Positions 18,787 through 32,159 of a DNA stretch of 64,000 nucleotides are shown here, piece after piece. The DNA comes from a virus. Made by a program: the position numbers and the translations under genes. The DNA lies in IMG/VR virus record IMGVR_UViG_3300045747_000454, positions 1 through 64,000 of that record; one strand, 5' to 3'. The notes under the pieces were generated by a model. That model was not told the DNA's origin. It worked only from the letters and a program-made list of their open reading frames with translations, and ran no database searches. How positions within the stretch are numbered: the first letter of the stretch is position 1; each line of letters opens with the position of its first letter.

Positions 18787-18794
18787 CATAAATA
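18787..18794 (+). promoter_or_regulatory. T4-type late promoter (CATAAATA)
   Basis: CATAAATA directly after the terminator and 34 bases before ATG 18821. A perfect hairpin, TAAGCTT-CACA-AAGCTTA at 18793-18810, overlaps the expected transcription start. Confidence 0.75.
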
Positions 18795-18820: not shown

Positions 18821-21151
18821 ATGGCAGCAGACTACAAGCATCTTGAGGACCTTGATCCGAAGTCGTTCATCGATACGGTTCGTCGATTGGGGCAGCTACA
18901 AGTTTCGGAGAAGCTTGACGGCTCAGTCTTCTGGTTTGGTCTCGACGAAGCCGGCAACTTCTACACCAGTCGCCCGAACGCTCACGCTGAGCGCTTTCAC
19001 AGCGAAGCCGACTACCCGAACGTGCTGTCAAACAACTCGCTGCGCTCGGCTCACGCTGCACTTGAGGTGAAGCTTGGTGTCATCAAGGCTGCCCTACTGC
19101 CAGGCGATGCCATCGTGGCTGAAGCCATCTTCGGCAAGCAGGAGAAGACTGCTGTGTACGGTGCCGATGGCATTCACTACATCGCCATTCTCGACAGCGC
19201 TGAAGGAACGAATGAGCTCAAGGTCTCCAAGATCATCGCCGATTTTGCCAACACCGAGGTTGAAGCTCGCTCAATGACGGTCGAGTCGTCAGACGGAACG
19301 AACATCGACCGCAAGCTTGAGATGCACAAGTTTCGCTTCGTCACTGAGCCGCCGATTCACTCGTCAAAGCTCAAGGGCGTCAACGTCAACAGCGCTCTGA
19401 AGAAGCTTGAGCTGTGGCTTGACAACGTCTCAGGCGTCGATCGTCTGACAAACCTTGATCTGCTCACTGCAGACATGTCGTCAATCCCAGCCGAGCAGCG
19501 CGACGCAGCAAAGTCTGAGCGCAAGCGCGTGACAGCAGAGCTCAAGTCGAAGTTTCAACTGCCGATCAAGCGCGAGTTGCTCAGTGGTCTCGTCTCCAAG
19601 CTGAAGCCAACGCACGGTCCAACCAATCCCTTTCCGAATGAGGACAACGGCGTTGCTGGCGTCAACATCAAGGACCCAACGACTGGCGGGACCTACAAGC
19701 TCGTTGACACTGACGGCTTTGGCACCATCAAGGCGTTCAACAACGCTGTGATCGACACGATCTCTGGTTCTGTTCGCACTACCGATGATGAAGCCCCGCT
19801 CGAACAGCGCGGTGGCGTTGTTGGTCTGCTGCGCATTCAGATTGCCAAGCTTCTCGGCAATCAAGACCTTGCCATCAATCGCGAAGCTCGCAAGATCTTC
19901 GCTGGCGCCAAGGGTTCGCACGCCACTGAGACGCTGCGCAGCGTTGCAGCTACACTGCGTGCTGATGACTACCTCGGCACGCAGCGCAAGATCGAAGCGC
20001 TTGGGCAGCACGCGCTCGTCGAGCTTGACGCGCTGCTGACAAATTTCAAGAAGCATCAGCGCAAGTACACGCTGAAGCTGAAGACCGGACGCACTATTGG
20101 TCTGAGCCCAGAGGTCATCAAGCGCACCTATGGTGCCTTCGCTGAAGCGAAGAGCGAGGTGGCAGAGCTCATCGTTAACGTTAACAAGGCCGACAGCCTC
20201 ATCAAGCTTGTTGGCGTGCTGTATGGCAAGGATGCTGTGGCAGCGCACGCCACCAAGAACACTGAGCTGCACGAGGGTCTGCTGTCTGAGCGGCGCGTGC
20301 AAGTTGACATCTCTCACACGATTGAAGTCCCAGACTTCTGGACGCTGATGAACGTCTACTTCGCTACTGTGCTGGCGTCAGTTGTTATCTACAAGGCGCA
20401 GGACAACAATGGGGTGCTGCGCTTTGTTCGAGACCAAGCTCACCATCGTTTGAACCGACTCGAGCCGGGCATGAGCGCGCTGAACTACTGGGGCTACCTC
20501 GTTTGGAAGTCGAACACACCACGTGCGGTGCAAATCCTCGGCAAGAAGCTCGCCGCCGAAATGTCGCGTATCGCTCGCAAGGTCCCAGAGCAGCACGTTC
20601 GCTTTCTACACATGGAGCTGTCGTTCGGCAAGATGCTGAAGATCAACTGGGACGACCATCTGGCGACCATGATCTTCCTTCAGAAGCGCACTCCGTCGTT
20701 GAATACCGAGCGCATAAATAACCTCATCGAGGATGCGTTTCGCTACGACACCATGACGTTCGATGAGAAGGTCAAGTTTCTGCCGCGCATCTACTTCTAC
20801 GTTCAGCAGTTCGTCCCGATGTCGCCGCTTCAACCAAGACTGCGCATCATTCAGGACACGCTGCTTCAATTCGGAGACACGGCAAACACGCCGACCACTA
20901 TCGTAATGGCACCAAATCAAAAGCTACTCGGCGAGGATGGAGAGATTGCCGCAGGACCAGACTCAGGCCCAGCCGCGACGCCAACGACTGGGGCGACCAG
21001 CACGAACTCTGGCAGCATCTCAAACGTTCAAGGACGTGCCGGCAGGCACCCAAACATCGAGAAGCGAACACGCAAGGGTAAGCCACTCGGAAGAGACGGA
21101 CAGCCGCTTGGCGTGATGTTCCGTCGCCCACCACCAGGAGGAGTGAAATGA
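18821..21151 (+). CDS. Large late protein with ligase-like nucleotidyltransferase N-terminus
   Basis: A 776-residue protein with no close recognised relative. Residues 29-35 read SEKLDGS, the KxDG lysine motif (K31, D33, G34) of covalent nucleotidyltransferases such as DNA and RNA ligases. FYTSR and AEAIFGKQE follow at positions where those enzymes have motifs Ia and III. A clear motif V is not seen, so activity is uncertain. The remainder is mostly helical, and the last 90 residues are Gly/Thr/Pro-rich and then basic. It has a late promoter and no visible Shine-Dalgarno, and it overlaps the next gene by 4 bases. Late timing suggests a virion-associated or assembly-stage protein rather than a replication ligase. 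Confidence 0.6.
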   Translation: MAADYKHLEDLDPKSFIDTVRRLGQLQVSEKLDGSVFWFGLDEAGNFYTSRPNAHAERFHSEADYPNVLSNNSLRSAHAALEVKLGVIKAALLPGDAIVAEAIFGKQEKTAVYGADGIHYIAILDSAEGTNELKVSKIIADFANTEVEARSMTVESSDGTNIDRKLEMHKFRFVTEPPIHSSKLKGVNVNSALKKLELWLDNVSGVDRLTNLDLLTADMSSIPAEQRDAAKSERKRVTAELKSKFQLPIKRELLSGLVSKLKPTHGPTNPFPNEDNGVAGVNIKDPTTGGTYKLVDTDGFGTIKAFNNAVIDTISGSVRTTDDEAPLEQRGGVVGLLRIQIAKLLGNQDLAINREARKIFAGAKGSHATETLRSVAATLRADDYLGTQRKIEALGQHALVELDALLTNFKKHQRKYTLKLKTGRTIGLSPEVIKRTYGAFAEAKSEVAELIVNVNKADSLIKLVGVLYGKDAVAAHATKNTELHEGLLSERRVQVDISHTIEVPDFWTLMNVYFATVLASVVIYKAQDNNGVLRFVRDQAHHRLNRLEPGMSALNYWGYLVWKSNTPRAVQILGKKLAAEMSRIARKVPEQHVRFLHMELSFGKMLKINWDDHLATMIFLQKRTPSLNTERINNLIEDAFRYDTMTFDEKVKFLPRIYFYVQQFVPMSPLQPRLRIIQDTLLQFGDTANTPTTIVMAPNQKLLGEDGEIAAGPDSGPAATPTTGATSTNSGSISNVQGRAGRHPNIEKRTRKGKPLGRDGQPLGVMFRRPPPGGVK
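20713..20720 (+). promoter_or_regulatory. Possible internal late promoter (CATAAATA)
   Basis: CATAAATA inside the 776-residue gene, about 430 bases before the next start. It matches the motif but lies in coding sequence and may be coincidental. Confidence 0.25.
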
Positions 21152-21936
21152 TGTCACTACTGAAAGAGGTATCTGGCATCCCAGTGTACTCTCAACCAAA
21201 GGCCACAACTGGCACGCAAGATCTGAGTCAGAAGACCGATGCGTCTGACATTGGCTTCTCGACGATGCGCAACACAATCAACACCGACGGCAACATCAGC
21301 GGCTCTGATGTGGCATCGTATCTCGATCGTGCGGCTGAGCTGAACGACGAGGTCGACACGGTTCCATTCGGCCTTGAGACGAGCGACAATGAGATCGTCA
21401 AGGTCTACGTCAACGCTGAGCAAGCCGACGCCTTTGAAGACAAGATGAAGCAGCTGCTCGGCGCCGAGAAGGACATTGAAGAAGCGCTCAATGAGCTGGC
21501 AATGGACTTCGACATCGTTGATGTCGTGTGGCCAGAGGACAAGACCGAAGCCGCAGAGAACGAGGCGCCGATTGGCGACCCAAGCCACGACGACTTTGAT
21601 GACCTTGACAACGACGGCGAGATGGACACCATCGCCGAGTACGATGACCTGACCGAAAGCCTGGACCCAGACGCCGTCGTGTCGACTGAAGCAACCGAAG
21701 CCGAGCGGGCCACGTGGTCGCGCCTTGAGGCCGTCGTTGGTCAGCTTCACGCGCTTGGCACGGGTGGCGTTCGCGTCGTGACTGGATTGACTGAGGGCAA
21801 GTTCACCAAGACTGAGCTCATTCGAAAGTACATTGCTGAGAAGTACGCAGCCGACTGCGCAACTGCCATAAGCGTGTTGAAGCGTGCGGGTGTATCCCGT
21901 GAAGACTATCCATACTGGCTTGCTGAGCAAGCCTAA
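21148..21936 (+). CDS. Acidic late protein with capsid-targeting-like N-terminus
   Basis: A 262-residue unrecognised acidic protein. AGGAGG at 21136-21141 serves ATG 21148 or the adjacent ATG 21151. The N-terminus MMSLLKEV contains L-K-E, matching the (L/I)xE cleavage signature of T4 prohead protease and resembling the gene at 22787. The middle is very rich in Asp and Glu (DDFDDLDNDGEMDT). The C-terminal 70 residues are helical and could be a winged helix or adaptor. It lies in the plus-strand late block. An internal-head or scaffold role is inferred. Confidence 0.65.
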   Translation: MMSLLKEVSGIPVYSQPKATTGTQDLSQKTDASDIGFSTMRNTINTDGNISGSDVASYLDRAAELNDEVDTVPFGLETSDNEIVKVYVNAEQADAFEDKMKQLLGAEKDIEEALNELAMDFDIVDVVWPEDKTEAAENEAPIGDPSHDDFDDLDNDGEMDTIAEYDDLTESLDPDAVVSTEATEAERATWSRLEAVVGQLHALGTGGVRVVTGLTEGKFTKTELIRKYIAEKYAADCATAISVLKRAGVSREDYPYWLAEQA

Positions 21937-21950
21937 CTGAAGGAGACACC

Positions 21951-22787
21951 ATGTCACTTGGACAACAATTCCTGGCTCGCCTCAACGAAGCCAAGGCCCC
22001 AGCCCCGGTCAAGAAGAAGGCATTCACCTTCGACCCAGCTGTCGAGACGATGAAGCGCGGTATGCGCGACATCGGCGGTGAGAGCGATCTCGCCGACAAG
22101 ATTGCTGAGGTCATGTCGCTGTGCGGCATTCCTGGCATCTATCTGAACAAGCAGGACATCAAGGTCAGCGTGGTCGAGGCGGCTCAACAGCTGCGCACCA
22201 AGTCGGCTCGTGTTCGCTCGTTCTTGTCGCTGCACTCTGCGCTCTGTGCTTTCTATGGTGTCGAGGCTCTGGTGAAGGAAGCCAAGGCCGAGGTCGCTGA
22301 GTTCAGCGACGAAGAGCTCGAAGGCAGTCAGTTTCAGAAGATGGTCGAGGAAATCCTCGTGCTGCTCGGCGCTCCACGCGAGCTCGTGACTGGCGAAGCC
22401 AAGGCTCCCGTCAAGTCAAGCATGAAGCGCGCCATTGCCAAGCTTCGTCAAGATGAGAACGTTCGTATGGCAGTGCTCACGCTGGCTCGCTACGCTGGCA
22501 TCAAGATGAACGACGGCGTTGCTGGTGAGAAGAAGGTCGGCGGTCCGAAGAAGGTCGCGATGGAAGATGTTGCCGCACCGGCTGCTGCCCCAGCCGCTCC
22601 AAACATGTCCAACCTCTGGTTGTCTGCTGACAGCATCTTCAAGCATCTCGGTCTGAACCTGCAAGACGAAAAGCTGGTCCGCGTCGTCAACATGCCAGGT
22701 CTGATTCGCGCTGTCAAGGCCGCTTCGCGCAATCCGCAGACGAAGGCCGCAATGATCGCGTTTCTGAACAAGACCAAGGCTGAGTGA
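21951..22787 (+). CDS. Helical late protein with capsid-targeting-like N-terminus
   Basis: A 278-residue unrecognised protein, helical and rich in Ala and Lys, starting behind AGGAG. Its N-terminus MSLGQQFLARLNEA includes L-N-E at residues 11-13, the T4 prohead protease signature. It has an Ala/Pro linker (PAAAPAAPNM) at about residue 215. Neighbours on both sides have similar N-termini, which suggests a family of capsid-internal proteins. The gene overlaps the next by one base (TGATG). Confidence 0.65.
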   Translation: MSLGQQFLARLNEAKAPAPVKKKAFTFDPAVETMKRGMRDIGGESDLADKIAEVMSLCGIPGIYLNKQDIKVSVVEAAQQLRTKSARVRSFLSLHSALCAFYGVEALVKEAKAEVAEFSDEELEGSQFQKMVEEILVLLGAPRELVTGEAKAPVKSSMKRAIAKLRQDENVRMAVLTLARYAGIKMNDGVAGEKKVGGPKKVAMEDVAAPAAAPAAPNMSNLWLSADSIFKHLGLNLQDEKLVRVVNMPGLIRAVKAASRNPQTKAAMIAFLNKTKAE

Positions 22788-23476
22788 TGTCGCTGCTGCT
22801 TGAGGTTGCTAAGGTCGCTGAAGACGAACCGCTCACTCCAACGGGTGGGTGGAGCGTTGGCGACCTCGCGAACCTCGGCATGATGCTGTCGAGCGATGAC
22901 TTTTCGTTTCGCCTCGACTCGCACAATCTTAACGTTCTCTTCGACCTTGCTGAGAATGCTGAGGACGGTGAGGTTCGTACGACGAAGGGCGACATTCTCG
23001 AGGTGTCGACCCGCGAGAACGACATCGTCATTCGTCTTCAGGACGACGACACGTTTCCGAATGGGTTGCTGATCCCATTGAAGACGCTGAAGGATATGGG
23101 CATCGATCAGTATGAGGAAGATGATGGCGAATCAGTCGAGCAACCTGCTTCTGAGTTCGAGGACCTCAATGCCGATGATACTATAGTCGCTGAGGACTAT
23201 GTCAATCTTGACGAAGGTATCAAGAAAGCCTTTCGTCGCAGCGGTAGCAAGATCAAGCGTGGCTTTCGAGTCACGAGCGGGTTCCGTAAGGGACGCGTTG
23301 TTGCATCGGCTAAGGCTGCCTTTCGACCACGCGCTAAGGCTTCAACTCGCATGAAGCTGAAGATTGCTGGACGCAAGAAGAAGATCATTCGAATCATGAA
23401 GGGCAAGCGGACCCGCCGCCGCCCAATGTCTAAGCGACTCGTTCGCATGAACAAAACTCTCAGCCACCGCAAATGA
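22787..23476 (+). CDS. Late protein with acidic middle and highly basic C-terminus
   Basis: A 229-residue protein starting at ATG 22787 (TGATG with the previous stop; GTG 22784 is an alternative). The N-terminus MSLLLEV holds L-L-E. An acidic central stretch (QYEEDDGESVEQ) is followed by about 75 very basic residues, including AGRKKKIIRIMKGKRTRRR. That tail looks made to bind DNA or RNA, like basic internal head proteins. Its stop overlaps the next start by 4 bases. No named family is recognised. Confidence 0.65.
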   Translation: MSLLLEVAKVAEDEPLTPTGGWSVGDLANLGMMLSSDDFSFRLDSHNLNVLFDLAENAEDGEVRTTKGDILEVSTRENDIVIRLQDDDTFPNGLLIPLKTLKDMGIDQYEEDDGESVEQPASEFEDLNADDTIVAEDYVNLDEGIKKAFRRSGSKIKRGFRVTSGFRKGRVVASAKAAFRPRAKASTRMKLKIAGRKKKIIRIMKGKRTRRRPMSKRLVRMNKTLSHRK

Positions 23477-24153
23477 CCACCTTCACCTACCCCGAGCTAA
23501 CGACATCAAACGAACTCGGGTACAGGTGGTATCACACGAAGGGCGGCGCCTACCCGAGCATCACGACGGTGCTGGGCGCAACCAAGTCGCCTGAAGCTGC
23601 GGCTGCGCTGGAGAACTGGCGCAACTCAATGGGACACGAGGCGGCTGACGCCTTCTCCAAGGCTGCGACAGATCACGGCACGATGGTTCACTTGCTCGCA
23701 GAGCGTGGCTTCAATGGCGAGGATCCCTACGCCCCAGTGAACGGTGAGCCGGTGCCACAGAAGGCGATTGGCGCCTATCGTGCGCTGTCAACCAAGCTGA
23801 AGAAGGTTACTGCCGTCTACGGACAGGAGATGTCGCTCTACTCGACAGCGCTTGAGGTTGCTGGGCGCTGCGACCTGGCTGGCGAGTACAAGAGCGCTCC
23901 AGCCATCATCGACTTCAAGACGTCTGGGCGTGTCAAGGGCTACGAGAACATCGAGGACTATCCTCTTCAGCTCGCCTTCTACGCCATCGCGCACAACGAG
24001 CTGTTCGGCACCAACATCAACCGTGGCATCATTCTGATGACGGTTGGCGAGGGCTTCCCGATGGAGTTCAGCTACAACCTTGACGAGTACTACGAGCCGC
24101 TCGCAAAGCGCGTAGAACAGTTCTACCAGATGTTGATAAATAGAACCTACTGA
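23473..24153 (+). CDS. PD-(D/E)XK exonuclease (RecB/MGME1-like)
   Basis: A 226-residue protein. The core reads YPSITTVLGAT, HGTMVHLLAERG, VAGRCDLAGEY, AIIDFKTS and YPLQLAFYAIAHNE. These are the RecB-type motifs: a helix histidine, GxxD, the (D/E)xK strand, and Q-x3-Y. Such enzymes degrade single-stranded or duplex ends and occur in phage recombination and in mitochondria (MGME1). It lies in the late block rather than with the replication genes, so a role in DNA ejection, superinfection or end processing at packaging is possible. A late promoter overlaps its end. Confidence 0.85.
   Translation: MTTFTYPELTTSNELGYRWYHTKGGAYPSITTVLGATKSPEAAAALENWRNSMGHEAADAFSKAATDHGTMVHLLAERGFNGEDPYAPVNGEPVPQKAIGAYRALSTKLKKVTAVYGQEMSLYSTALEVAGRCDLAGEYKSAPAIIDFKTSGRVKGYENIEDYPLQLAFYAIAHNELFGTNINRGIILMTVGEGFPMEFSYNLDEYYEPLAKRVEQFYQMLINRTY
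24135..24142 (+). promoter_or_regulatory. T4-type late promoter (GATAAATA)
   Basis: GATAAATA in the last codons of the nuclease gene, 37 bases before ATG 24172. GAGGT at 24162-24166 follows as ribosome-binding site. Confidence 0.75.
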
Positions 24154-24171
24154 CAACAGTCGAGGTCATTC

Positions 24172-24633
24172 ATGGCAGATGTAAACGAATTTCAATTGGG
24201 GCTTGACACGAGCGCGCTTGCTAGCACGTCCGCACAGTCCGCACAGTCCGCACAGGTCTACTCAGGTGGCAACTCAGTCGTGGTCGGCGACCCAGTTGAC
24301 TATCCGCCGCCAGCCACTGAGGTGCCGAAGCGCACCATCAGCGTGTACGCCAACTCCATCAACGCCGTGTCGTACGACGTCAGCGGTGAGGTGGCGTGCT
24401 TTGACATCGTGTTCTCCGTCGGCATCATGGATTCAGACGGTTCGGCGTGCAAGACCTATCAAGTCGTCAAGCGCATCGGCATCGACAAGGAAAAGATTGC
24501 TGGTGAGGTCAAGGACTCCTCACCGGTCACGGTCGTCGAGGCATCAAAGCCTGAGCCGAAGAAGGTTATCAACGAGGGACGTTCGAAGCCATCAGAGCTC
24601 GAGCGCTTCCGCCGCATTGCAGGACTGGGGTAA
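24172..24633 (+). CDS. Hypothetical late protein with SAQ repeat
   Basis: A 153-residue unrecognised protein. The N-terminal 35 residues are low-complexity and include SAQSAQSAQ, encoded by a threefold 9-base repeat at 24229-24255. A beta-rich domain follows (RTISVYANSINAVSYDVS). The C-terminus (RSKPSELERFRRIAGLG) resembles tails of T4-like virion proteins. It has its own late promoter. Confidence 0.65.
   Translation: MADVNEFQLGLDTSALASTSAQSAQSAQVYSGGNSVVVGDPVDYPPPATEVPKRTISVYANSINAVSYDVSGEVACFDIVFSVGIMDSDGSACKTYQVVKRIGIDKEKIAGEVKDSSPVTVVEASKPEPKKVINEGRSKPSELERFRRIAGLG
24229..24255 (+). repeat. Tandem 9-base repeat, three copies
   Basis: TCCGCACAG occurs three times without interruption and encodes Ser-Ala-Gln three times. 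The perfect copies suggest recent expansion and possible length variation between related phages. Confidence 0.9.
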
Positions 24634-24636
24634 GCC

Positions 24637-25185
24637 ATGGGAAAGATTGTTGTTCTCGCATCCAATGAGGATGCTGAAGCCGTGAAGACGGCGCTCGACG
24701 GAGCCGGCGTCGACTACGAGGTCGTTGAGCCGACGCCGTCGAACATCCTTCACATCGTCATCGGTATGGTCGACGACGGTGAAGAGGAGCCAACTGATGA
24801 GGAACCGAAGGCCGAAGAGCCGAAGGAACCGAAGGCGCCAAAGGAGAAGAAGGAGCCACGCACCGATGACGCTGCGCCACCGCCTGAAGAGGAAGAGCTG
24901 CCAGTCGAGGAATCGCTTGGCACGGTCACCGTCGAAGGCGAGGTAATTCCGGCGATTCGTGGCACCGCCGACACCAGCGTGCTCTACGTTCACTTCGAAG
25001 AGCTAGGTCCGCGCACGACCTACAAGCTGAACGAAAGCGTCTGCAGCTTCTGGCCAAACGATCTCACGACGCCAATGTCCCGCATGTTGATCACCACCGA
25101 GCGTGGTGGGTCGATGTTTGAAGTGCTGGTGCGAGAAGGCGAAACGCGTCTCGTCGTCGGCAAGGATCTGGCTGCACTCTTCTGA
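24637..25185 (+). CDS. Hypothetical late protein with charged linker
   Basis: A 182-residue unrecognised protein with three parts: a small alpha/beta N-terminal domain (GKIVVLASNEDAEAVKTAL), a linker at about residues 50-90 made of Glu, Lys and Pro, and a C-terminal beta-rich domain (about 100-182). It starts 4 bases after the previous stop in the same transcript. No catalytic motif is visible. Confidence 0.65.
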   Translation: MGKIVVLASNEDAEAVKTALDGAGVDYEVVEPTPSNILHIVIGMVDDGEEEPTDEEPKAEEPKEPKAPKEKKEPRTDDAAPPPEEEELPVEESLGTVTVEGEVIPAIRGTADTSVLYVHFEELGPRTTYKLNESVCSFWPNDLTTPMSRMLITTERGGSMFEVLVREGETRLVVGKDLAALF

Positions 25186-25190
25186 ACCAA

Positions 25191-25850
25191 ATGACACATA
25201 TCAAATCACCGTTCATTGTCGTTGATGACTTCATCTCGCCGGCAAGCTGCGAACGCATCATCAAAGAGTATGGCATCACCGTCCCGTCCGTTGAGACGCT
25301 GGACGATGAGACCACTCGACCGCTGAAGCACTCGCGCATTCTACGCGACGGTGAATTCATGCTACTGCTCAAGGCAGCGGTGCAAGAACATCTTCAGACT
25401 ATACAAGAGCGCTACGGCGCCGACGTTGCTGGCATGGAGCCACCGGTCTTCTCACAGTACTTCGAGGATCAGAAGAATCCGTGCGAGCTGCACGGGTGCG
25501 AGAACGCGAAGTACGTGCGCAAGAAGTGGCTCAAGGTCAAGGACGTCGACCTCGTCGGCTACATCTGGCTGAAGGACTACAACAACGGCGTGCCGCTCGA
25601 CCCAAGCTACGAGGTCTACGGTGGCAAGCTCGAGTTTCCGGCCTTCAACTTCAGTCTCATTCCGCAGCGTGGAATGCTCGTGCTGTTTCCAGCCGGTCCG
25701 CACTTCATCACGGCAATCTCGCCAGTGATGCTCGGTACGCTTGAGCAGATCAAGATCACCATCAAGCTGCGCGTTGGCGAGGACGGCCTGTGGTTCTATC
25801 AACCAGCTGACTTTCCAGGTACGTATCAAGAATGGTTCGCCGAAGAATGA
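25191..25850 (+). CDS. 2OG-Fe(II) oxygenase-like protein, atypical metal motif
   Basis: A 219-residue protein with the double-stranded beta-helix layout of prolyl-hydroxylase-type oxygenases: a KLEFPAFNFSLIPQRGMLVLF strand pair, then PAGPHFITAISPV with H171 as distal iron ligand. The proximal HxD motif is not standard; the best candidate is H101-G-C-E104, so the aspartate is missing or replaced by glutamate at a shifted position. T4-like phages often carry such genes near structural clusters, with unknown targets. It overlaps the kinase-like gene by 4 bases. It may be active with an altered motif or may be a binding domain only. Confidence 0.7.
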   Translation: MTHIKSPFIVVDDFISPASCERIIKEYGITVPSVETLDDETTRPLKHSRILRDGEFMLLLKAAVQEHLQTIQERYGADVAGMEPPVFSQYFEDQKNPCELHGCENAKYVRKKWLKVKDVDLVGYIWLKDYNNGVPLDPSYEVYGGKLEFPAFNFSLIPQRGMLVLFPAGPHFITAISPVMLGTLEQIKITIKLRVGEDGLWFYQPADFPGTYQEWFAEE

Positions 25851-26494
25851 AAGTTCAAGAGCTGCTCGCCGAGGAATCCCTTCACGACTACCTGATTCGG
25901 TTGGTCGACAAGGAGGGCATCACGAAGCTTGGTGGCGGCGCCTTCTCGCAGGTCTTTCAGCATCCGCAGTTCCACAACGTTGTGACGAAGGTCTACACGG
26001 CGAAGGACAAGAAGTACGCAGCGTACGCGGCGTGGTGTCAGGCGAATCAGAGCAATCCGTACGTCCCGCAGATCATCGAGCAGCTGCCGTTCACGCACGG
26101 CAAGCAGAAGTACATCATCCTCTTCATGGAGAAGATGACGCCAATCAAAGACGAGAGCCAGCTCTTTCGCGCTTGGGTTCGAGCGCTGAAGCTGCCGAAG
26201 GACGGTCCAGACAACGAAGAGATTCTAGATCACTTCTCGAACTACGTTGAGGACGATGACTCTGGCGAGCTCGCCAAGGGGTTGAAGCTTGCCTTCGGTC
26301 TTGGTTATGGTGACACGAACCTCGTCAAGATCTGGACTCACATTCTGACCTATGGGGTCAAGAACATTGACCTTCACAGTGGCAACGTGATGCTGCGCAA
26401 CAAGCAGCTCGTGTTCACCGACCCAGTCGCTGGAACTCCAGACTACAAGAACTGGATCGGCAAGATCTCTTCAAAGCCTGAAGAGGATCAGTAG
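25847..26494 (+). CDS. Protein-kinase-like protein with capsid-targeting-like N-terminus
   Basis: A 215-residue protein. I use ATG 25847 (ATGA overlap) rather than 25832. The kinase-fold signature is present in order: glycine-rich loop LGGGAFSQVF (29-37), VVTKVY with K48, a hinge YIILFMEKM, a catalytic loop NIDLHSGNVML (D175, N180) and VFTDPV (D192). The fold is shorter than a full eukaryotic-type kinase, nearer to small phage or aminoglycoside-kinase-type enzymes. The N-terminus MKVQELLAE closely resembles the T4 capsid-targeting peptide, ending in L-A-E. It ends tail-to-tail with the minus-strand structural genes. Packaging in the head and injection is inferred, not shown. Confidence 0.72.
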   Translation: MKVQELLAEESLHDYLIRLVDKEGITKLGGGAFSQVFQHPQFHNVVTKVYTAKDKKYAAYAAWCQANQSNPYVPQIIEQLPFTHGKQKYIILFMEKMTPIKDESQLFRAWVRALKLPKDGPDNEEILDHFSNYVEDDDSGELAKGLKLAFGLGYGDTNLVKIWTHILTYGVKNIDLHSGNVMLRNKQLVFTDPVAGTPDYKNWIGKISSKPEEDQ

Positions 26495-27468
26495 GGTTGC
26501 CACGCTCCAGCGATAGCTGAATCGCCTACCCACTCGTAGATGGTGTTGTGCTCAGAGAGCCCACCGTCCTGCATCTCTCCATAGCTGACGTGAACGAGCG
26601 CTCGACAAGGTCCGGTGCGCTCTTTGTTCGGTGTGTCCGGTAGACCATCGCCGTTCTTGAGGCGAGTTGCCACGAAGGCGGTCAGCACTGAGTCGTCCAC
26701 CTTATCGTCCTGCTTGTCGTTCAGCTCGCCACGCGCAGGGGCGATGCCATTCCCAGATTCAGGTGTTGATGGCAGAGCTGTCCGTGGGATCATCTCCACC
26801 CAAGGGTCGTTATCATTGATTTGCGTTCGCAGGTCGTCGATGTCCCAGCCAACCGAGGTTGTTGTGGTGCCAGTTCCGCTGCCACTTGCGTCGGCGACGG
26901 GCGTCACCGTTTTGCTCAAAAGCGGATACATTCGAAAGCGCTGCTGAACGGAAATGACGTCAGGCGCAGCGAAATCCGCAGCACTTTTCGTGGTCTTAAG
27001 GGAGATCTCTCCCGGCACAAAAAACAAGCGGCCTGGCGTGAATGGCGAAGTAGTTGGCGTCGGCAGCGTGTATGGCTGCCCGATCCTCATCAAATTCCTT
27101 ATTTGCCAACTAATGCTATATTTCTGTGCGGATGGTGTGGGCGTTGTCAGCCCCTCAAATTGCCAGAGGTCCTGCGCTGTCCCAGACAGCTCGAACACGT
27201 CGAGAGCAGCCCCAACAACGTTCTCTGCTTCCTTGAGGTTGTGATTGGTGACGATGCAGTAGGCTTCGGCATCAACGGCTCCGGCTGGGTGAATCTCGAC
27301 AACCTCGATGGTGATGTTGTTGCCAGCCACGCCAGGATCGCGAGCGCGAAAGTAGGTTCCTCCAATCCAAAGGCGCGCCCGCCGACTAGAGCAGGTTCGG
27401 AGCTGAACTCGGGTCGTGAATAGGTTCGGCGGCTTGAAACCGTAGGTTGGGACGACGATGTTCTTCAT
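26488..27468 (-). CDS. Putative virion structural protein
   Basis: A 326-residue beta-rich protein. The segment RARDPGVAGNNITIEVVE at about residue 42 resembles a short motif seen in tail-sheath-type proteins (PGxxGNxIxVEV), but the whole is too short to be a sheath. The middle is Thr/Ser/Gly-rich. It overlaps the PAAR gene upstream by 4 bases and lies at the end of its transcript, suggesting a tail-tip or baseplate accessory role. Its end overlaps the convergent kinase-like gene by 7 bases. Confidence 0.65.
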   Translation of the reverse strand: MKNIVVPTYGFKPPNLFTTRVQLRTCSSRRARLWIGGTYFRARDPGVAGNNITIEVVEIHPAGAVDAEAYCIVTNHNLKEAENVVGAALDVFELSGTAQDLWQFEGLTTPTPSAQKYSISWQIRNLMRIGQPYTLPTPTTSPFTPGRLFFVPGEISLKTTKSAADFAAPDVISVQQRFRMYPLLSKTVTPVADASGSGTGTTTTSVGWDIDDLRTQINDNDPWVEMIPRTALPSTPESGNGIAPARGELNDKQDDKVDDSVLTAFVATRLKNGDGLPDTPNKERTGPCRALVHVSYGEMQDGGLSEHNTIYEWVGDSAIAGAWQPY

Positions 27469-27791
27469 GGGCTGTCGAAGCTGACGCCACCCTCGGCTGA
27501 TGGCGTCGTGTCAGGCAGAACGATACCATCATGCCAGGCGGAGCCGCAGTTGTGAATGCGAATCTTCGTCTTGCCACGAATGGCGGCTGGTCGCCCATTG
27601 ACGAAGACGGTGACCTCCTTGGACACCACGAAGTACGTCGGCGGATAGCAGCCGTGCCCAGTGGTCTGCGGCAGATCATCAGTGGCGGCGCCGCCTACCG
27701 GCATGCCGTTGATGAAGACGTCCGACGACCCAGTCGCTACGTGATCACCACACGAGATTGGGTCGCCGATTCTTGCTACGTTGCCTGCCAT
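27465..27791 (-). CDS. PAAR-domain tail spike tip protein
   Basis: A 108-residue PAAR protein: ARIGDPISCGDHVATGSSDV, FINGMPVGG, GHGCYP, VFVNGRPAAIRGKTKI and HNCGSAW. The Cys and His residues would bind the metal at the point of the cone. PAAR proteins cap the central spike (gp5-like, encoded at 56553) and pierce the outer membrane. AGGAGG precedes the start, and a late-promoter variant lies 32 bases before the ATG. It is separated from the other baseplate genes by about 25 kb. Confidence 0.92.
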   Translation of the reverse strand: MAGNVARIGDPISCGDHVATGSSDVFINGMPVGGAATDDLPQTTGHGCYPPTYFVVSKEVTVFVNGRPAAIRGKTKIRIHNCGSAWHDGIVLPDTTPSAEGGVSFDSP

Positions 27792-27822
27792 TTGTAACAG
27801 CCTCCTGTCGTTACGCTTTACC

Positions 27823-27830
27823 TATTTACA
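27823..27830 (-). promoter_or_regulatory. Late-promoter variant (TGTAAATA) for PAAR gene
   Basis: TGTAAATA on the minus strand, 32 bases before the PAAR start codon at 27791. It is divergent from the plus-strand -10 element at 27847. Confidence 0.5.
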
Positions 27831-27846
27831 GAATGCAGGATCGGTG

Positions 27847-27852
27847 TATAAT
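27847..27852 (+). promoter_or_regulatory. Sigma70-like -10 element (TGTATAAT)
   Basis: TATAAT preceded by TG, between the inverted arms ATGCAG (27833-27838) and CTGCAT (27855-27860). It drives the plus-strand island at 27859-28786 inside the minus-strand late region. ATG 27859 is 6 bases downstream. Confidence 0.6.
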
Positions 27853-27858
27853 GGCTGC

Positions 27859-27882
27859 ATGAACTTCGAAAGCCAATCGTGA
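27859..27882 (+). CDS. Possible 7-residue leader peptide
   Basis: ATG 27859 opens a 7-codon reading frame (MNFESQS) whose TGA overlaps the GTG start of the next gene (GTGA). The ATG sits where the -10 element would place +1, so the peptide would be translated from a leaderless mRNA. It could couple translation of the gene at 27879. Confidence 0.3.
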   Translation: MNFESQS

Positions 27883-28079
27883 ATGCTCAAGAACTCCTGA
27901 TGGCCGCCTTTATGACCATGCTCACCGAGGATGAACAAAGCCTCCTCGCCGAACGCCTGGCCGACGGCGCCAACTTCCTCGATGCCGGCGAAGCCGAAGA
28001 GTGGCTCGTCAAGATCGCCGCTGGCCTTCGGTTCAGCGTCGACTACGGTGGCGACATTCCTCATCCTTGCCTGCGCTGA
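27879..28079 (+). CDS. Small hypothetical protein of plus-strand island
   Basis: A 66-residue acidic helical protein. The GTG start at 27879 overlaps the stop of the mini reading frame; an in-frame ATG at 27900 is the alternative. No Shine-Dalgarno is clear for either. Function unknown. Confidence 0.5.
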   Translation: MNAQELLMAAFMTMLTEDEQSLLAERLADGANFLDAGEAEEWLVKIAAGLRFSVDYGGDIPHPCLR

Positions 28080-28086
28080 GGTCACC

Positions 28087-28365
28087 ATGTTCACCATCAT
28101 CGAGTTCGGCCTCTTCACCTACCTGCTCGAAGAGCTCGAGCGCAAGGGTTGGACCGTCAAGCGCGCCGCCAACCTGCCGCGTGATCCGACAGACACCAAG
28201 GAACCGCTCTACCACTACCTGATGCGACGCAATGGCGAGTTCGTCTACGAGCCGACGTACAGCTGCCCGATGCCGCACGTCTTCGAATCCGAGGACGCCG
28301 CCTCCAAGTTCGTCAATGCTCAACCCAACGAGCAACACCTTCAACCCATTCCCGAGGACATCTGA
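28087..28365 (+). CDS. Small hypothetical protein of plus-strand island
   Basis: A 92-residue unrecognised protein starting at ATG 28087, behind GAGGT. The first half is a hydrophobic helix that is probably buried rather than in a membrane (FGLFTYLLEELERKGWTV). Earlier in-frame starts overlap the preceding gene and are less likely. Confidence 0.65.
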   Translation: MFTIIEFGLFTYLLEELERKGWTVKRAANLPRDPTDTKEPLYHYLMRRNGEFVYEPTYSCPMPHVFESEDAASKFVNAQPNEQHLQPIPEDI

Positions 28366-28367
28366 AC

Positions 28368-28553
28368 ATGCCAACCACACTCTCGCTTCATCATCACGAT
28401 GAGGTCCTTCGAATCGTTAGCGCCGAGCATGTCTTCGTGGCGCGCAAGTCCGACGTTCTGATCGTCGACGGTCGTCGCATGGTCGTTCTCGAAGTTCAGG
28501 TCGAGTACGTCGACGACCGCACCTTCGTTCGCATCTACCTGTCGAGCTTCTGA
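28368..28553 (+). CDS. Small hypothetical protein of plus-strand island
   Basis: A 61-residue, mostly beta-strand protein (VFVARKSDVLIVDGRRMVVL). It starts 2 bases after the previous stop and overlaps the next gene by one base (TGATG). No family is recognised. Confidence 0.6.
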   Translation: MPTTLSLHHHDEVLRIVSAEHVFVARKSDVLIVDGRRMVVLEVQVEYVDDRTFVRIYLSSF

Positions 28554-28786
28554 TGCACACCCTCCTCATTCTCGACGTTCACACGCTCATCGGCACAGAC
28601 GCGCAGACCATCAGCGCCATTGCGACCAAGGCTGGCCTGAGCTGCGCCTTCTCGGCTGGATCGCAGCCGCAGGTCTTCGTGTTCGGCGATACCGACGGCG
28701 CGCTCGATGCTCTGTCGACGCTCAAGCAGCACGGCAAGGTTGCCTATCACGGCAAGGTCACGCCAACGGGATTGGCAACGACTTGA
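28553..28786 (+). CDS. Small hypothetical protein of plus-strand island
   Basis: A 77-residue alpha/beta protein with a Thr/Ala-rich middle (TISAIATKAGLSCAFSAG). It starts in a TGATG overlap. Its 3' end overlaps the convergent lysin gene by 29 bases, so the two mRNAs are complementary at their ends. Confidence 0.6.
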   Translation: MHTLLILDVHTLIGTDAQTISAIATKAGLSCAFSAGSQPQVFVFGDTDGALDALSTLKQHGKVAYHGKVTPTGLATT

Positions 28787-30380
28787 CGTAGGCCTGACGG
28801 TCAGTTGTTCGAGCAATCCAACCCTTCTGATAGGTCGGGTTCAATCCGCTGATGAATGCGAGCGCTGACTTGGTCAGCAGCTCGCACGCGGCGTCCTGCT
28901 CGGCCTTCGTGTTGTACGTACCCGTGAGCCCAGCGCCCTGACGAATCTTCTTGGCGTTGTTGGGTCCGTGCAGATAGTTCAAGTCGAACATCAGAATGGC
29001 GATCAAGGCTGGCTCGGTGTCAAGGTGATACAGCGTCCAGTAGTTCGACTTACCAAACGACTTGGCCTGATCGTAGGTCAGCGTCGTGACAACGATGTTC
29101 GGCTTGTTCGGGTTCTGCGCAACGCCGAACTTCGTCTCACCGCCTGGAAAGTTCGGGCCTGGCTTGTAACCACACTGCTTGCGATTGAGCGGCGTCTCGA
29201 TCTTGCCAGCATCTAGGTCCGCATCACCCGGCGACCACTGGGGTTGCGTCATCCAGTGCGGACCAACCTCGTGCTGCATCGTGAAGAACCACGCCTTCTC
29301 GAAGGCGTCTCCACTGGGGAGTGCCGGCGGCACGTAGGGCGGCGGTGGTGGGGCTGCAGCACCCGTCTCTGGATTGACATTGCCGGCTGGGCAGGGCGCT
29401 CCCTTGGCGGCGCTGTCTGGGGCGCTCACCGCGCTGCCACCACCAGCCTGCGTCTGAGCACCTTGTGGATCGCCGGTTGGCGTTGTCTCAGGTGCAGTTG
29501 TAACGCCCTCACGAATGTATGGGAGCGGGTCGACTGGCGTGCCGTTTGGCAGCCGAACTTCGAAGTGCAGGTGATTGCCAGTTGAGGAGCCCGTTGTGCC
29601 CTCATGTCCGATGCGGGTGCCGGCTGCAACCTTCTGGCCTGTGGTCACGAAGATGCGCGCCATGTGGCCATACGTCGTGCCGCACATGACCTCACCAGAC
29701 CCGTTGGCGTGTTGAATCTTGACGCAGTTGCCATAGCCAGAGGTGAGCGTTCCGCTGACGCCAGCGAACGTCACCGTGCCATCGGCAGCAGCGAGCACGT
29801 CGCCCGTGTGCCGATCAGTGTACTTCATGTCGACGCCGGTGTGCAGCTTCTGCGCCTTGGTGATTGGGTGAACGCGCGGTCCAAACTTGCTGTTGACGAT
29901 GGCGCCGGGCAACGGGTGAATCATCGTGATGCCGTTGGTGGCGGTGCCCTTCACCGGTGAGAAGCGAAACGTGCGCGAGTCGATCTCTGTACCAGCAGCG
30001 TCGAGCGCCGTGACCAGCACCTCGAATGGCTTGCCAAGATCAGCGTCATTGAACTTGCCCGTGAGGTGTCCGTTGGTGAAGACGATCGGAGCCGGCAGCG
30101 CTGGCGTTAGTGTCCAAGTGACTGCGACCTTCGTCGAGCCAGGCGTCAGCGTGAAGGTGGTGTCGAGACTGGCGTCTGACGCCTTGACGAAGATGCCGGT
30201 GTTGGCAATCTTGTCTGGCGGGTGTTCGGTCGCGTCATCCATCTTGCCGGTCTGATCGCCCATGCGCGCAGCGTAGCACTCAATGGATTCACCTGGCTGC
30301 ATTGCCGTCTCTGGGCCAGCGTTGGCGCCATCGGCACCTTCGCCGAGACTAATCTCTGGTGGTTCAGGACAGCAGCTCAC
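28758..30380 (-). CDS. Bifunctional lysin: M23 endopeptidase plus GH108-like muramidase
   Basis: A 540-residue protein with two peptidoglycan-cleaving modules. Residues about 150-290 form an M23/LytM domain: SKFGPRVHP, LHTGVDM near 178 and GNHLHFEVR near 272 supply the zinc histidines and aspartate. After a Pro/Gly/Ala-rich linker (about 295-355), residues about 365-510 resemble GH108 muramidases, with MQHEVGPHW (catalytic Glu), GGETKFGVAQN and a YW pair. The N-terminal 150 residues contain an Ig-like beta domain. No signal peptide is seen, so it is either a virion-associated or a holin-dependent enzyme. It overlaps the o-spanin gene by 4 bases, which favours lysis. Confidence 0.85.
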   Translation of the reverse strand: MSCCPEPPEISLGEGADGANAGPETAMQPGESIECYAARMGDQTGKMDDATEHPPDKIANTGIFVKASDASLDTTFTLTPGSTKVAVTWTLTPALPAPIVFTNGHLTGKFNDADLGKPFEVLVTALDAAGTEIDSRTFRFSPVKGTATNGITMIHPLPGAIVNSKFGPRVHPITKAQKLHTGVDMKYTDRHTGDVLAAADGTVTFAGVSGTLTSGYGNCVKIQHANGSGEVMCGTTYGHMARIFVTTGQKVAAGTRIGHEGTTGSSTGNHLHFEVRLPNGTPVDPLPYIREGVTTAPETTPTGDPQGAQTQAGGGSAVSAPDSAAKGAPCPAGNVNPETGAAAPPPPPYVPPALPSGDAFEKAWFFTMQHEVGPHWMTQPQWSPGDADLDAGKIETPLNRKQCGYKPGPNFPGGETKFGVAQNPNKPNIVVTTLTYDQAKSFGKSNYWTLYHLDTEPALIAILMFDLNYLHGPNNAKKIRQGAGLTGTYNTKAEQDAACELLTKSALAFISGLNPTYQKGWIARTTDRQAYVKSLPIPLA

Positions 30381-30667
30381 TTAGATGCCGCCGATGCTGC
30401 TGGAGCTGGCGCCTCGTAGAACTTGACGAGCGTGGTGATCATTCCTTCAAGGCGATACTGCCGCTCTTCAGTCGCACGAATCCACTGAGCGAGATCTACT
30501 TGAGTAGCGCCAGAGGCAGGAATGTTCGGTGGATAGGGTGGCAGACGCTTCAGCTCAGCGGGAGCTGTGCGCACCACGTAGTGATACTCAGGCACGACGA
30601 TCTCCTTGGTTCGCACCATTGAGTCGCAGCCAACGAGCAGCAGGCAGAAGAGCAGCGCGTACCTCAT
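30377..30667 (-). CDS. o-spanin (Rz1-like outer-membrane lipoprotein)
   Basis: A 96-residue protein with a lipoprotein signal: a short basic start, hydrophobic ALLFCLLLVG, and the lipobox cysteine at position 14. The mature part is Pro-rich (LKRLPPYPPNIP) and ends in a short helix and an Ala-rich tail. It would sit in the outer membrane and pair with the inner-membrane spanin encoded just upstream to fuse the membranes at lysis. The two genes overlap by 4 bases. Confidence 0.82.
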   Translation of the reverse strand: MRYALLFCLLLVGCDSMVRTKEIVVPEYHYVVRTAPAELKRLPPYPPNIPASGATQVDLAQWIRATEERQYRLEGMITTLVKFYEAPAPAASAASK

Positions 30668-31077
30668 GGCATCTCTCCGCGATTGGCCCGATCGACCTGA
30701 ATCTGATGGACCACCGCAGCAAGGACAGGGCTGAGCTCGACCTGATTCGCTGGGTCGTTGCGCTGAGCAGCAATGATGTCTCCAAGTCGCCCAATCGTCA
30801 CGGCATCCTTCTTGCGTTTTGCTTCGAGGCTGGCGACGGCTGCATCGGCTGAGACCTTCTCAGCTTGCAGATCGGCGATGGTCTGCGCGTTCATCGCTGC
30901 AATGCCAATCGCCTTGTCACGAGCGGAGATAGCTTCTTCCTTCTCAAGCACCGCTTGCGCTTGAGCGGCCTTCGACTTCTGCAGCTTCAGATACTGCAAC
31001 CCTCCCCAAGCGCCAATGCAGGCGATGGAGAGAGCAGCACAGATGGCTACGAGCTTCGTTGACAATAGCCCAAACAT
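30664..31077 (-). CDS. i-spanin (Rz-like inner-membrane protein)
   Basis: A 137-residue protein with one N-terminal membrane segment (LVAICAALSIACIGAWGG) followed by a long Ala/Glu/Lys coiled coil (about 30-105). This is the usual plan of an inner-membrane spanin with a periplasmic helix. It overlaps the o-spanin gene by 4 bases. A holin is not recognisable next to it. Confidence 0.82.
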   Translation of the reverse strand: MFGLLSTKLVAICAALSIACIGAWGGLQYLKLQKSKAAQAQAVLEKEEAISARDKAIGIAAMNAQTIADLQAEKVSADAAVASLEAKRKKDAVTIGRLGDIIAAQRNDPANQVELSPVLAAVVHQIQVDRANRGEMP

Positions 31078-31104
31078 GTTGGGTCTCCTTCTGCTGTGTT
31101 CGCG

Positions 31105-31320
31105 TCAGCTCAGGCGAACGATACCTGTCTGAGCTGACGTGAACGTGATGACCACTTGATTGTCTGATGTCACCTGAATCTTGAGAGGCAGAACTACCTC
31201 TGATTGTCCAGTGTGTGGAATGACAACATCAACGTTTGGCTTGCGGCCAAGGTTGTGGTTCACCGTCCAAGTGGAAGACGCTGAAGATTGCGTGTGGGTG
31301 TAGACTGGAATACCTACCAT
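31105..31320 (-). CDS. Single-module fibre protein (HNLG domain)
   Basis: A 71-residue protein that is essentially one copy of the YTHTQSSASSTWTVNHNLG domain found in the neighbouring tail-fibre genes. It has strands ending in VVITFTSAQTGIVRL. It lies 2 bases after the next module gene in the same transcript. It probably decorates a tail fibre or baseplate; the ligand is unknown. Confidence 0.75.
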   Translation of the reverse strand: MVGIPVYTHTQSSASSTWTVNHNLGRKPNVDVVIPHTGQSEVVLPLKIQVTSDNQVVITFTSAQTGIVRLS

Positions 31321-31322
31321 GA

Positions 31323-31550
31323 TTACACCACCGATGCATAGCCGCTGAGCACTTCACCGAACGACACCGTGCAGGTGGTGTCGCTTACGTAGGTGACGGC
31401 TTGCGGAATGACCTTCTGCAGCTCACCATCAACCGTGACGTAGGCGTCAACGATTGGGTAGTCATGCAGATTGTGAATGATGGTCCACGTAGCCGCAGGA
31501 GTATCCTGCGTATGGTTGTAGACCGTGGCAATACGACGCGTGAGAGCCAT
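31323..31550 (-). CDS. Single-module fibre protein (HNLG domain)
   Basis: A 75-residue protein containing one HNLG-type domain (VYNHTQDTPAATWTIIHNL), in which the usual glycine after HNL is lost. It is related to the genes on both sides by domain. It is cotranscribed with them from the late promoter at 32195. Confidence 0.72.
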   Translation of the reverse strand: MALTRRIATVYNHTQDTPAATWTIIHNLHDYPIVDAYVTVDGELQKVIPQAVTYVSDTTCTVSFGEVLSGYASVV

Positions 31551-31559
31551 GATGACTCC

Positions 31560-32159
31560 TTACAGCAGGCGGGCGTAGCCGACCTGCGGTGTGGTGAAGG
31601 TGACCGTGACGCGATTGGCTGTGTCGTGAACGATTGACGATGGCTGAACTTCATTGAGGCCGATGAAGACGCGCACGATTGGGTGGTAGCCGAGATTGTG
31701 GTCAATGGTCCAAGTAGTCGAGGCTGAGCCTTGATTGAACGTGAACGCGTAGGCCGGCTTTGGATTGCCTTCAAACGAGCCAGTGACCACAACCGCCTTG
31801 CCAGCGACGGCGGAGTTGAAGTAGATCGTAGCGGTCGTTGGGGTCTGAACCAGAATTTCATCTGGCATAAGGACCTTGTTGTCTGTGCCATAGACCTGAA
31901 CATTGACCTCTGTCGTGTTGAGGTTGTGAGTGATGTTCCAAGTAGCTGAAGCACTACCTTGTGAGTGCGTGTACGACGTGATCTCACGCGTGAGTGGAAC
32001 CCAGACTGGGAGCGCTCCAGCGCCGACGCAGATGTAGACGATGCTATTCACGAAGGCCAGCTGTCCAACAACTGGCGCGTCTGGGAAATTGGTGAGAGTA
32101 CTCAGCGCAGCATTCTGCACCTCGTTCTGCTGTAGATTGGCGTGGCCGTAGAACTTCAT
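31560..32159 (-). CDS. Short tail-fibre protein with two HNLG domains
   Basis: A 199-residue protein. The N-terminal 55 residues (GHANLQQNEVQNAALSTL, then GQLAFVNSIVYIC) match the start of phage fibre proteins that carry a short attachment domain. Two HNLG domains follow, beginning SYTHSQGSASATWNITHNL and AFTFNQGSASTTWTIDHNLG. A late promoter is present 36 bases before the start. It likely is a receptor-binding or adaptor subunit. Confidence 0.75.
   Translation of the reverse strand: MKFYGHANLQQNEVQNAALSTLTNFPDAPVVGQLAFVNSIVYICVGAGALPVWVPLTREITSYTHSQGSASATWNITHNLNTTEVNVQVYGTDNKVLMPDEILVQTPTTATIYFNSAVAGKAVVVTGSFEGNPKPAYAFTFNQGSASTTWTIDHNLGYHPIVRVFIGLNEVQPSSIVHDTANRVTVTFTTPQVGYARLL

Follow-up and report, generated by a model that had tools for sequence, protein, structure and literature searches.

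Can a T4-superfamily phage carry a protein kinase in its head and deliver it with its DNA? This question is raised by an uninterrupted open reading frame of 215 residues (25847–26494, + strand) in the 64,000-nucleotide stretch analysed here (the window), which makes up the opening 64 kb of an IMG/VR virus record of 116,033 bp (IMGVR_UViG_3300045747_000454; hereafter designated the source record). We found that the encoded protein almost certainly belongs to the gp0.7-type protein kinase domain family known from phage T7, and that its first nine residues, MKVQELLAE, resemble the capsid-targeting sequences (CTS) of phage T4 beyond chance. Judging from these features, the kinase is probably packaged and injected, and the whole chain, in which a T7-type kinase has been redeployed as a packaged, injected effector, may be held with only slightly less confidence. 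The gene and its elements are as follows; conservation is given for 72 sequences, namely, the window protein and 71 relatives.

25847–26494, + strand: very probable gp0.7-type protein kinase, 215 residues, last gene of its presumed operon (profile match, alignment and structure model).
25847–25873, + strand: CTS-like peptide MKVQELLAE, with a predicted prohead-protease cut after E9 (L-A-E).
25928–25948, + strand: glycine loop L28–S34 (LGGGAFS), from the translation and conserved columns.
25988–25990, + strand: K48, the ATP-binding lysine, conserved in 72 of 72.
26369–26386, + strand: catalytic loop D175-L-H-S-G-N180, with D175 and N180 each conserved in 71 of 72.
26420–26425, + strand: D192-P193 replacing DFG, with D192 conserved in 71 of 72 and P193 in 72 of 72.

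Among PHROG profiles, the protein matched 15752 (E 2e-20), described as protein kinase, inhibitor of host transcription (T7-type), as well as 2828 (E 2e-12) and 18305 (E 5e-11). It had no Pfam match above the cut-off (best E 0.036), and T7 gp0.7 likewise had no significant one (best E 0.66). PDB-sequence and PADLOC searches with the kinase gave nothing useful, an AbiEi match in PADLOC (E 0.0025) being judged due to chance. In an alignment of the window kinase with T7 gp0.7, the kinases of three T7-like phages (26–28% identity) and the 55% identical homologue described below, L28, G29, G31, F33, S34, K48, D175, H177, G179, N180, D192 and P193 were invariant, the motifs of the window protein being L28-G-G-G-A-F33, V46-T-K48, D175-L-H-S-G-N180 and D192-P193. 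Its identity was 26% to T7 gp0.7 and 19–31% to 30 other relatives. A profile scan of viral contigs yielded 71 loci, 67 on contigs of 38–43 kb (T7-like size), one on the homologue's 190-kb record and three on short contigs; each start was set at the earliest start codon available in the frame, and some N-termini are therefore too long. Across the 72 sequences, G31, F33, K48, H177 and P193 were conserved in all, and D175, N180 and D192 in 71. The glycine loop, lysine and catalytic aspartates that an earlier, sequence-only reading of this DNA had placed within the 215 residues are thus where it put them. A scan of genome contigs for kinase relatives confirmed none of 233 candidates, and the kinase profile had no match in T4, Atu_ph07, XacN1, CBB, RaK2 or SCTP-2 (six of ten records, and six of the eight named T4-superfamily phages), which marks the kinase as accessory; RAS14 showed a weak match that contained internal stops. 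Beyond P193, just 22 residues remain, where T7 gp0.7 continues for a long stretch, and the C-terminal basic shut-off domain of T7 gp0.7 is absent.

The fold proposed in the earlier reading was borne out by structure prediction and fold search. An AlphaFold2 model built with 32 sequences reached a predicted local distance difference test (pLDDT) score of 85.5 and a predicted template-modelling score of 0.76; a preliminary model based on two sequences scored poorly (pLDDT 52.7) and was set aside. The 50 PDB matches listed in the fold search were all protein kinases or the aminoglycoside phosphotransferase (APH) APH(2'')-Ia (best E 9.7e-5), with modest TM-scores to the query (0.28–0.40 among these 50), and VIA-align gave a Z of 8.6 to Mps1/TTK over 127 residues at 3.2 Å (model range 18–196). 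A Z near 8 is weak by itself, but the listed PDB matches and the sequence agree on a kinase fold for the model. Proteins of 194 residues from CBB and RaK2 were among the weaker matches listed from a viral structure library. At its N-terminus, the model shows a helix (3–7) followed by a break (8–11), with a mean pLDDT of 61 over residues 1–10.

The N-terminal peptide was compared with those of T4, which, translated from T4 DNA, read MKTYQEFIAE-A (ipII/ipIII), MELITELFDE-D (Alt), MAKINELLRE-S (gp24) and MLKEQLIAE-A (gp22), the hyphens marking what we take to be the cut positions. A start pattern derived from these peptides occurred in 24 of the 133 called genes of the source record, as against 4.4 expected from internal positions and a mean of 3.7 (maximum 10) in 500 trials with shuffled N-termini. 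When N-termini were compared with three seeds from T4 by BLOSUM62 score, that of the kinase (score 24) ranked fifth of 133, and shuffling of its residues 2–31 reached this score in 10 of 20,000 trials. Scores of at least 20 were obtained for seven genes of the source record, the kinase included (0.25 expected; one of the seven, 102989, is an unlikely case), four of the homologue's record (0.15 expected; its kinase, with 25, ranks first of 225), five of phage RHph_I1_18 (0.5 expected) and eight of T4 (0.35 expected; five of these either supplied the seeds or are the alt.-1 duplicate). Moreover, the window protein and its homologue are the only two of the 72 kinases with the pattern, the best seed score among the other 70 being 19 and the median of all 72 being 7. 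Genes 21148 and 22787, first thought CTS-like, were set aside, as their starts do not match the T4-derived pattern. Because the ATG at 25847 overlaps the stop codon of the preceding gene (ATGA) and the homologue starts at the same place, MKVQELLAE is likely to be the true N-terminus; an alternative upstream ATG at 25832 would add MVRRR. For five pattern genes of the source record (17038, 25847, 52073, 61384 and 100682), blastp found a counterpart in the homologue's record, and since only that of the kinase (25847) also has the pattern, the tag on the kinase appears to have been selected. By these sequence comparisons, the CTS-like peptide on the kinase is beyond chance.

The T4 internal proteins and Alt reach the prohead by means of a CTS of 10–20 residues that is afterwards removed by the protease gp21, as stated in passages of PMC5694885; the CTS is also treated in part of PMC3012670. 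The source record has a gp21-type (S77) prohead protease (PF03420, E 5.8e-24; phrog_207, E 2.2e-53), which, together with the kinase fold, the CTS-like peptide and the late-type motif, lends partial support to the injected kinase proposed in the earlier reading, as well as a portal (gp20; PF07230, E 2.5e-89), a major capsid protein (gp23; PF07068, E 4.3e-86) and, in the place expected for the scaffold, a protein at 77328 (phrog_10922, function unknown). This protease family was found in five of the six records searched (the source record, T4, RHph_I1_18, Atu_ph07 and XacN1). MKVQELLAE ends in L-x-E, as expected for a gp21-type protease, and cleavage after E9 is predicted from the sequence. Such a cut is plausible for the clade because the capsid proteins of the source record and XacN1 have L-I-E-T and L-A-E-T, respectively, near the place of L-T-E in T4 gp23. 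The nearest capsid proteins among the matches listed were those of Stenotrophomonas phages CM1 and RAS14 and Xanthomonas phage XacN1 (45%), all of them phages of 319–385 kb.

Late synthesis of the kinase is suggested by a promoter motif, ATAAATA, which occurs at 26 sites in the source record (about 5 expected), 19 of them 25–65 nucleotides upstream of a start on the same strand (mean 0.6 and maximum 4 over 2000 random trials). The site at 24136 heads four closely spaced genes, of which the kinase is the last:

24136–24142, + strand: putative T4-type late promoter core ATAAATA, 36 nucleotides ahead of gene 1 of the presumed operon.
24172–24633, + strand: operon gene 1, 153 residues, no assigned function (best family match E 0.09).
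24637–25185, + strand: operon gene 2, acidic, 182 residues, no assigned function (best family match E 0.049).
25191–25850, + strand: operon gene 3, 219 residues, very weak match to a 2OG-Fe(II) oxygenase (E 0.3), 54% identical to a protein of the homologue's record.
26488–27468, − strand: convergent gene closing the block, 326 residues, no convincing family match.

Throughout the window (for example, at 18788 and 24136), the place of T4 TATAAATA is taken by ATAAATA or TAAATAG, mostly 28–47 nucleotides ahead of a gene start, and this exact T4 motif is not enriched in the source record (2 sites). From its position and its likeness to the T4 motif, we take ATAAATA to be a late promoter. The earlier reading had put the kinase at the end of a late block: it is the final gene of the + strand block, its 3' end being overlapped by the convergent gene, and the motif precedes the operon, so that this placement holds, and the late timing is suggested by the motif. 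In the homologue's record, ATAAATA is not enriched (2 sites) and TAAATA is at the expected frequency (38 sites, 39 expected), 24 of the 38 being 25–50 nucleotides before starts; the homologous kinase has TAAATA 28 nucleotides before its ATG. The kinase operon is closely preceded by the gene of an exonuclease-like protein (23473–24153; phrog_298, E 1e-49). Positions 20,000–32,000 had no match when an annotated phage collection was searched for near-identical DNA, and an Rfam scan of the same range found no family.

The homologue, a 55% identical kinase in a related 190-kb record, starts with MKVAQLLREES, and 58 of the 133 source-record genes have a blastp match in that record. Counterparts of the kinase neighbours 23473, 24172 and 25191 (51%, 34% and 54% identity) are adjacent there at 148–151 kb with no kinase among them, and the kinase lies at 54 kb; thus, tag, motif and kinase stay together though the place differs. 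In a midpoint-rooted tree of 23 rows (rows at least 80% identical to a kept one being dropped), the window kinase groups with its homologue (100/100), and a long branch separates these two from the remaining 21 rows; the direction of transfer cannot be read from the tree because its root is the midpoint. Immediately behind its kinase gene, the homologue's record holds another kinase-like gene (L002:10648-11448; profile probability 94.9), which starts with MRVDELTG and lacks a clear L-x-E; in the phage collection it matched, weakly (E 0.03), a single protein, the kinase-like QIG70573 of Rhizobium phage RHph_I1_18. In viral-contig searches, the kinase of that Rhizobium phage found no relatives, and this second kinase-like gene recovered only itself.

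The kinase is not the only CTS-like gene of the source record. Nineteen of the 24 pattern matches fall between 88.6 and 113 kb, or 18 when a doubtful one (100682) is removed. Two tandem families, mutually homologous (99.5%) and outside the window, are at 88,600–93,125 (seven genes, six with the pattern) and 105,550–112,948 (eight genes, seven with the pattern). Relatives occur in Salicola phage SCTP-2 and, in tandem, in Agrobacterium phage Atu_ph07, where M[KR]WxQL[TN]E starts eight of ten consecutive genes. Conserved in the arrays are an R-G preceded by a hydrophobic pair, R-S-x-S and E-[IV]-[MW]; these motifs resemble the R-S-E pattern of ADP-ribosyltransferases (ARTs), a likeness confirmed by none of the searches: there was no PDB match, no match to T4 Alt and no Pfam match (five members scanned, E below 0.039). 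With two mostly CTS-tagged arrays of this ART-like pattern, by motif only, in the same record, the earlier suggestion that a kinase here stands in for T4's ADP-ribosyltransferase is not upheld. CTS-like starts were also seen on a zeta-toxin-like P-loop protein (109053–109817; PF06414, E 1.2e-7) and an amidoligase-like protein (93907–95454; PF12224, E 5.6e-10).

These observations would fit the following course. The phage would make the gp0.7-type kinase domain late, from the ATAAATA promoter; the first nine residues would act as a CTS and bring the kinase into the prohead core, where the S77 protease would cut after L-A-E9 and leave within the head a compact kinase, about 206 residues long; ejected with the DNA, it would phosphorylate host proteins at once and could reach its targets ahead of any transcription. 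By analogy with T7-type relatives, the targets would most likely be defence and/or transcription proteins, and early action on them is likely if the kinase is packaged. Packaging, cleavage, injection, activity and substrates are what we infer from the sequence. In a broader form, for which we put the chances at about even, a defence-disarming kinase of T7 lineage is shared with T4-superfamily phages, has no shut-off domain, has a CTS and a late promoter, and is delivered as a ready-made enzyme, along with about 18 other CTS-tagged effectors, for phosphorylation of host proteins from DNA entry onward.

Several points weigh against this course. The protease was not found in the homologue's record, nor were scaffold and capsid counterparts, that record perhaps being a fragment; in the source record, the kinase is about 48–53 kb away from the head genes. 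Just one close homologue was found, and the other 70 kinase relatives are without the tag pattern, which in the homologue's record occurs at a frequency not significantly above chance (12 of 225 genes, 7.8 expected; shuffle mean 5.5, maximum 13). The tag is not kept in the counterparts of genes 17038, 52073, 61384 and 100682, and those four look like chance; three T4 seeds underlie the score itself, and matches extend to unrelated genes, T4 gene 25 scoring 17. The usual activation segment with APE is missing, as the chain ends so soon after P193, so that activity is not assured from the sequence, and excerpts of PMC12345140 state that full counter-defence by JSS1 in vivo required the shut-off domain, which the window kinase does not have.

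Part of this evidence suits a kinase that acts late in the cytoplasm of the same infected cell, in superinfection exclusion, lysis timing or phosphorylation of virion proteins, its CTS resemblance being chance or an ordinary amphipathic start. The late-type motif and the CTS-like starts of some non-head genes agree with such a role, and a late HipA-like phage kinase is read in this way in passages of PMC8008677. Nevertheless, the strength of the tag, its retention in a homologue located elsewhere and the cluster of CTS-tagged genes in the source record make this explanation rather unlikely. That the tag serves entry into the core for phosphorylation of core or capsid proteins during assembly, and not of host proteins, would follow from the same tag and protease argument as packaging of an effector, and is very improbable given that gp0.7-type relatives act on host proteins (PMC12345140 and PMC5569994, in part) and that the kinase, by its absence from six of the eight named T4-superfamily phages, is accessory. 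A pseudokinase or APH-like small-molecule phosphotransferase with the fold kept, as APH(2'')-Ia among the top structural matches and the truncated segment after DP might indicate, is equally hard to sustain with the catalytic residues kept and a profile shared with kinases reported in excerpts of PMC12345140 to phosphorylate many host proteins.

A packaged and injected effector, if this reading is true, would add phosphorylation to ADP-ribosylation as a host modification delivered by the virion. The kinases of T7-like phages, early-transcribed, have to be expressed before they can act, at a time of active defences, and a head-packaged kinase would act before transcription. The combination of a late motif, an M-x(2-5)-[EDQ]-[FLY]-x-x-E start and an S77 protease would moreover serve as a sequence rule for injected effectors in uncharacterised large phages, with false positives occurring. 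Among the titles and abstract openings listed in searches of open PMC papers, none dealt with a CTS-tagged or head-packaged phage protein kinase; the words 'kinase' and 'capsid targeting' are absent from the main text of the jumbo-phage review PMC13282480, and 'protein kinase' from PMC7824862. Passages of PMC8008677 count two characterised phage protein kinases, and those of PMC9503650 argue that ARTs are often head-packaged in myoviruses.

Three known systems come closest to the window kinase. It shares the LGxGxFS loop, the lysine, D-x-H-x-x-N and DP with T7 gp0.7 and the JSS1_004 kinase, and differs from them in having no C-terminal shut-off domain; its glycine loop starts at residue 28, as against 48–115 in gp0.7-type relatives (starts taken from the longest frame). 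Excerpts report that gp0.7 phosphorylates host RNA polymerase (PMC5569994) and that gp0.7-type kinases phosphorylate many host proteins and disarm several bacterial defences (PMC12345140). The gp0.7-type genes are early and stand beside the phage single-subunit RNA polymerase, whereas the window kinase belongs to a late-type operon of a T4-type phage and has a CTS-like start. The earlier reading had called a kinase a solution different from that of T4; what differs is the delivery, by inferred packaging instead of early transcription, a phage kinase for host takeover being already known from the T7 gp0.7 lineage. A kinase-like protein is also found in RHph_I1_18, a cultured T4-type Rhizobium phage with an S77 protease: QIG70573 (1201–1866; 'putative protein kinase', profile probability 96.6) has the annotated N-terminus MKSFSEHIAES (seed score 27), and DFRRDN in place of DLHSGN. 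Its tag depends on the annotation, in which the start is TTG, the gene caller having put the start internally at 1318. The same phage encodes a small protein (41968–42375) whose start, MAKTYKEFIAEA, is a near-copy of the T4 internal-protein CTS (score 46). With T4 IPI–III and Alt, finally, the window kinase has in common a short N-terminal peptide ending in L/I-x-E (ipII and ipIII; L-F-D-E in Alt), an S77 protease and a late-type motif; in T4, Alt is an ADP-ribosyltransferase and the internal proteins are small, whereas the putative cargo here is a protein kinase without an ART domain.
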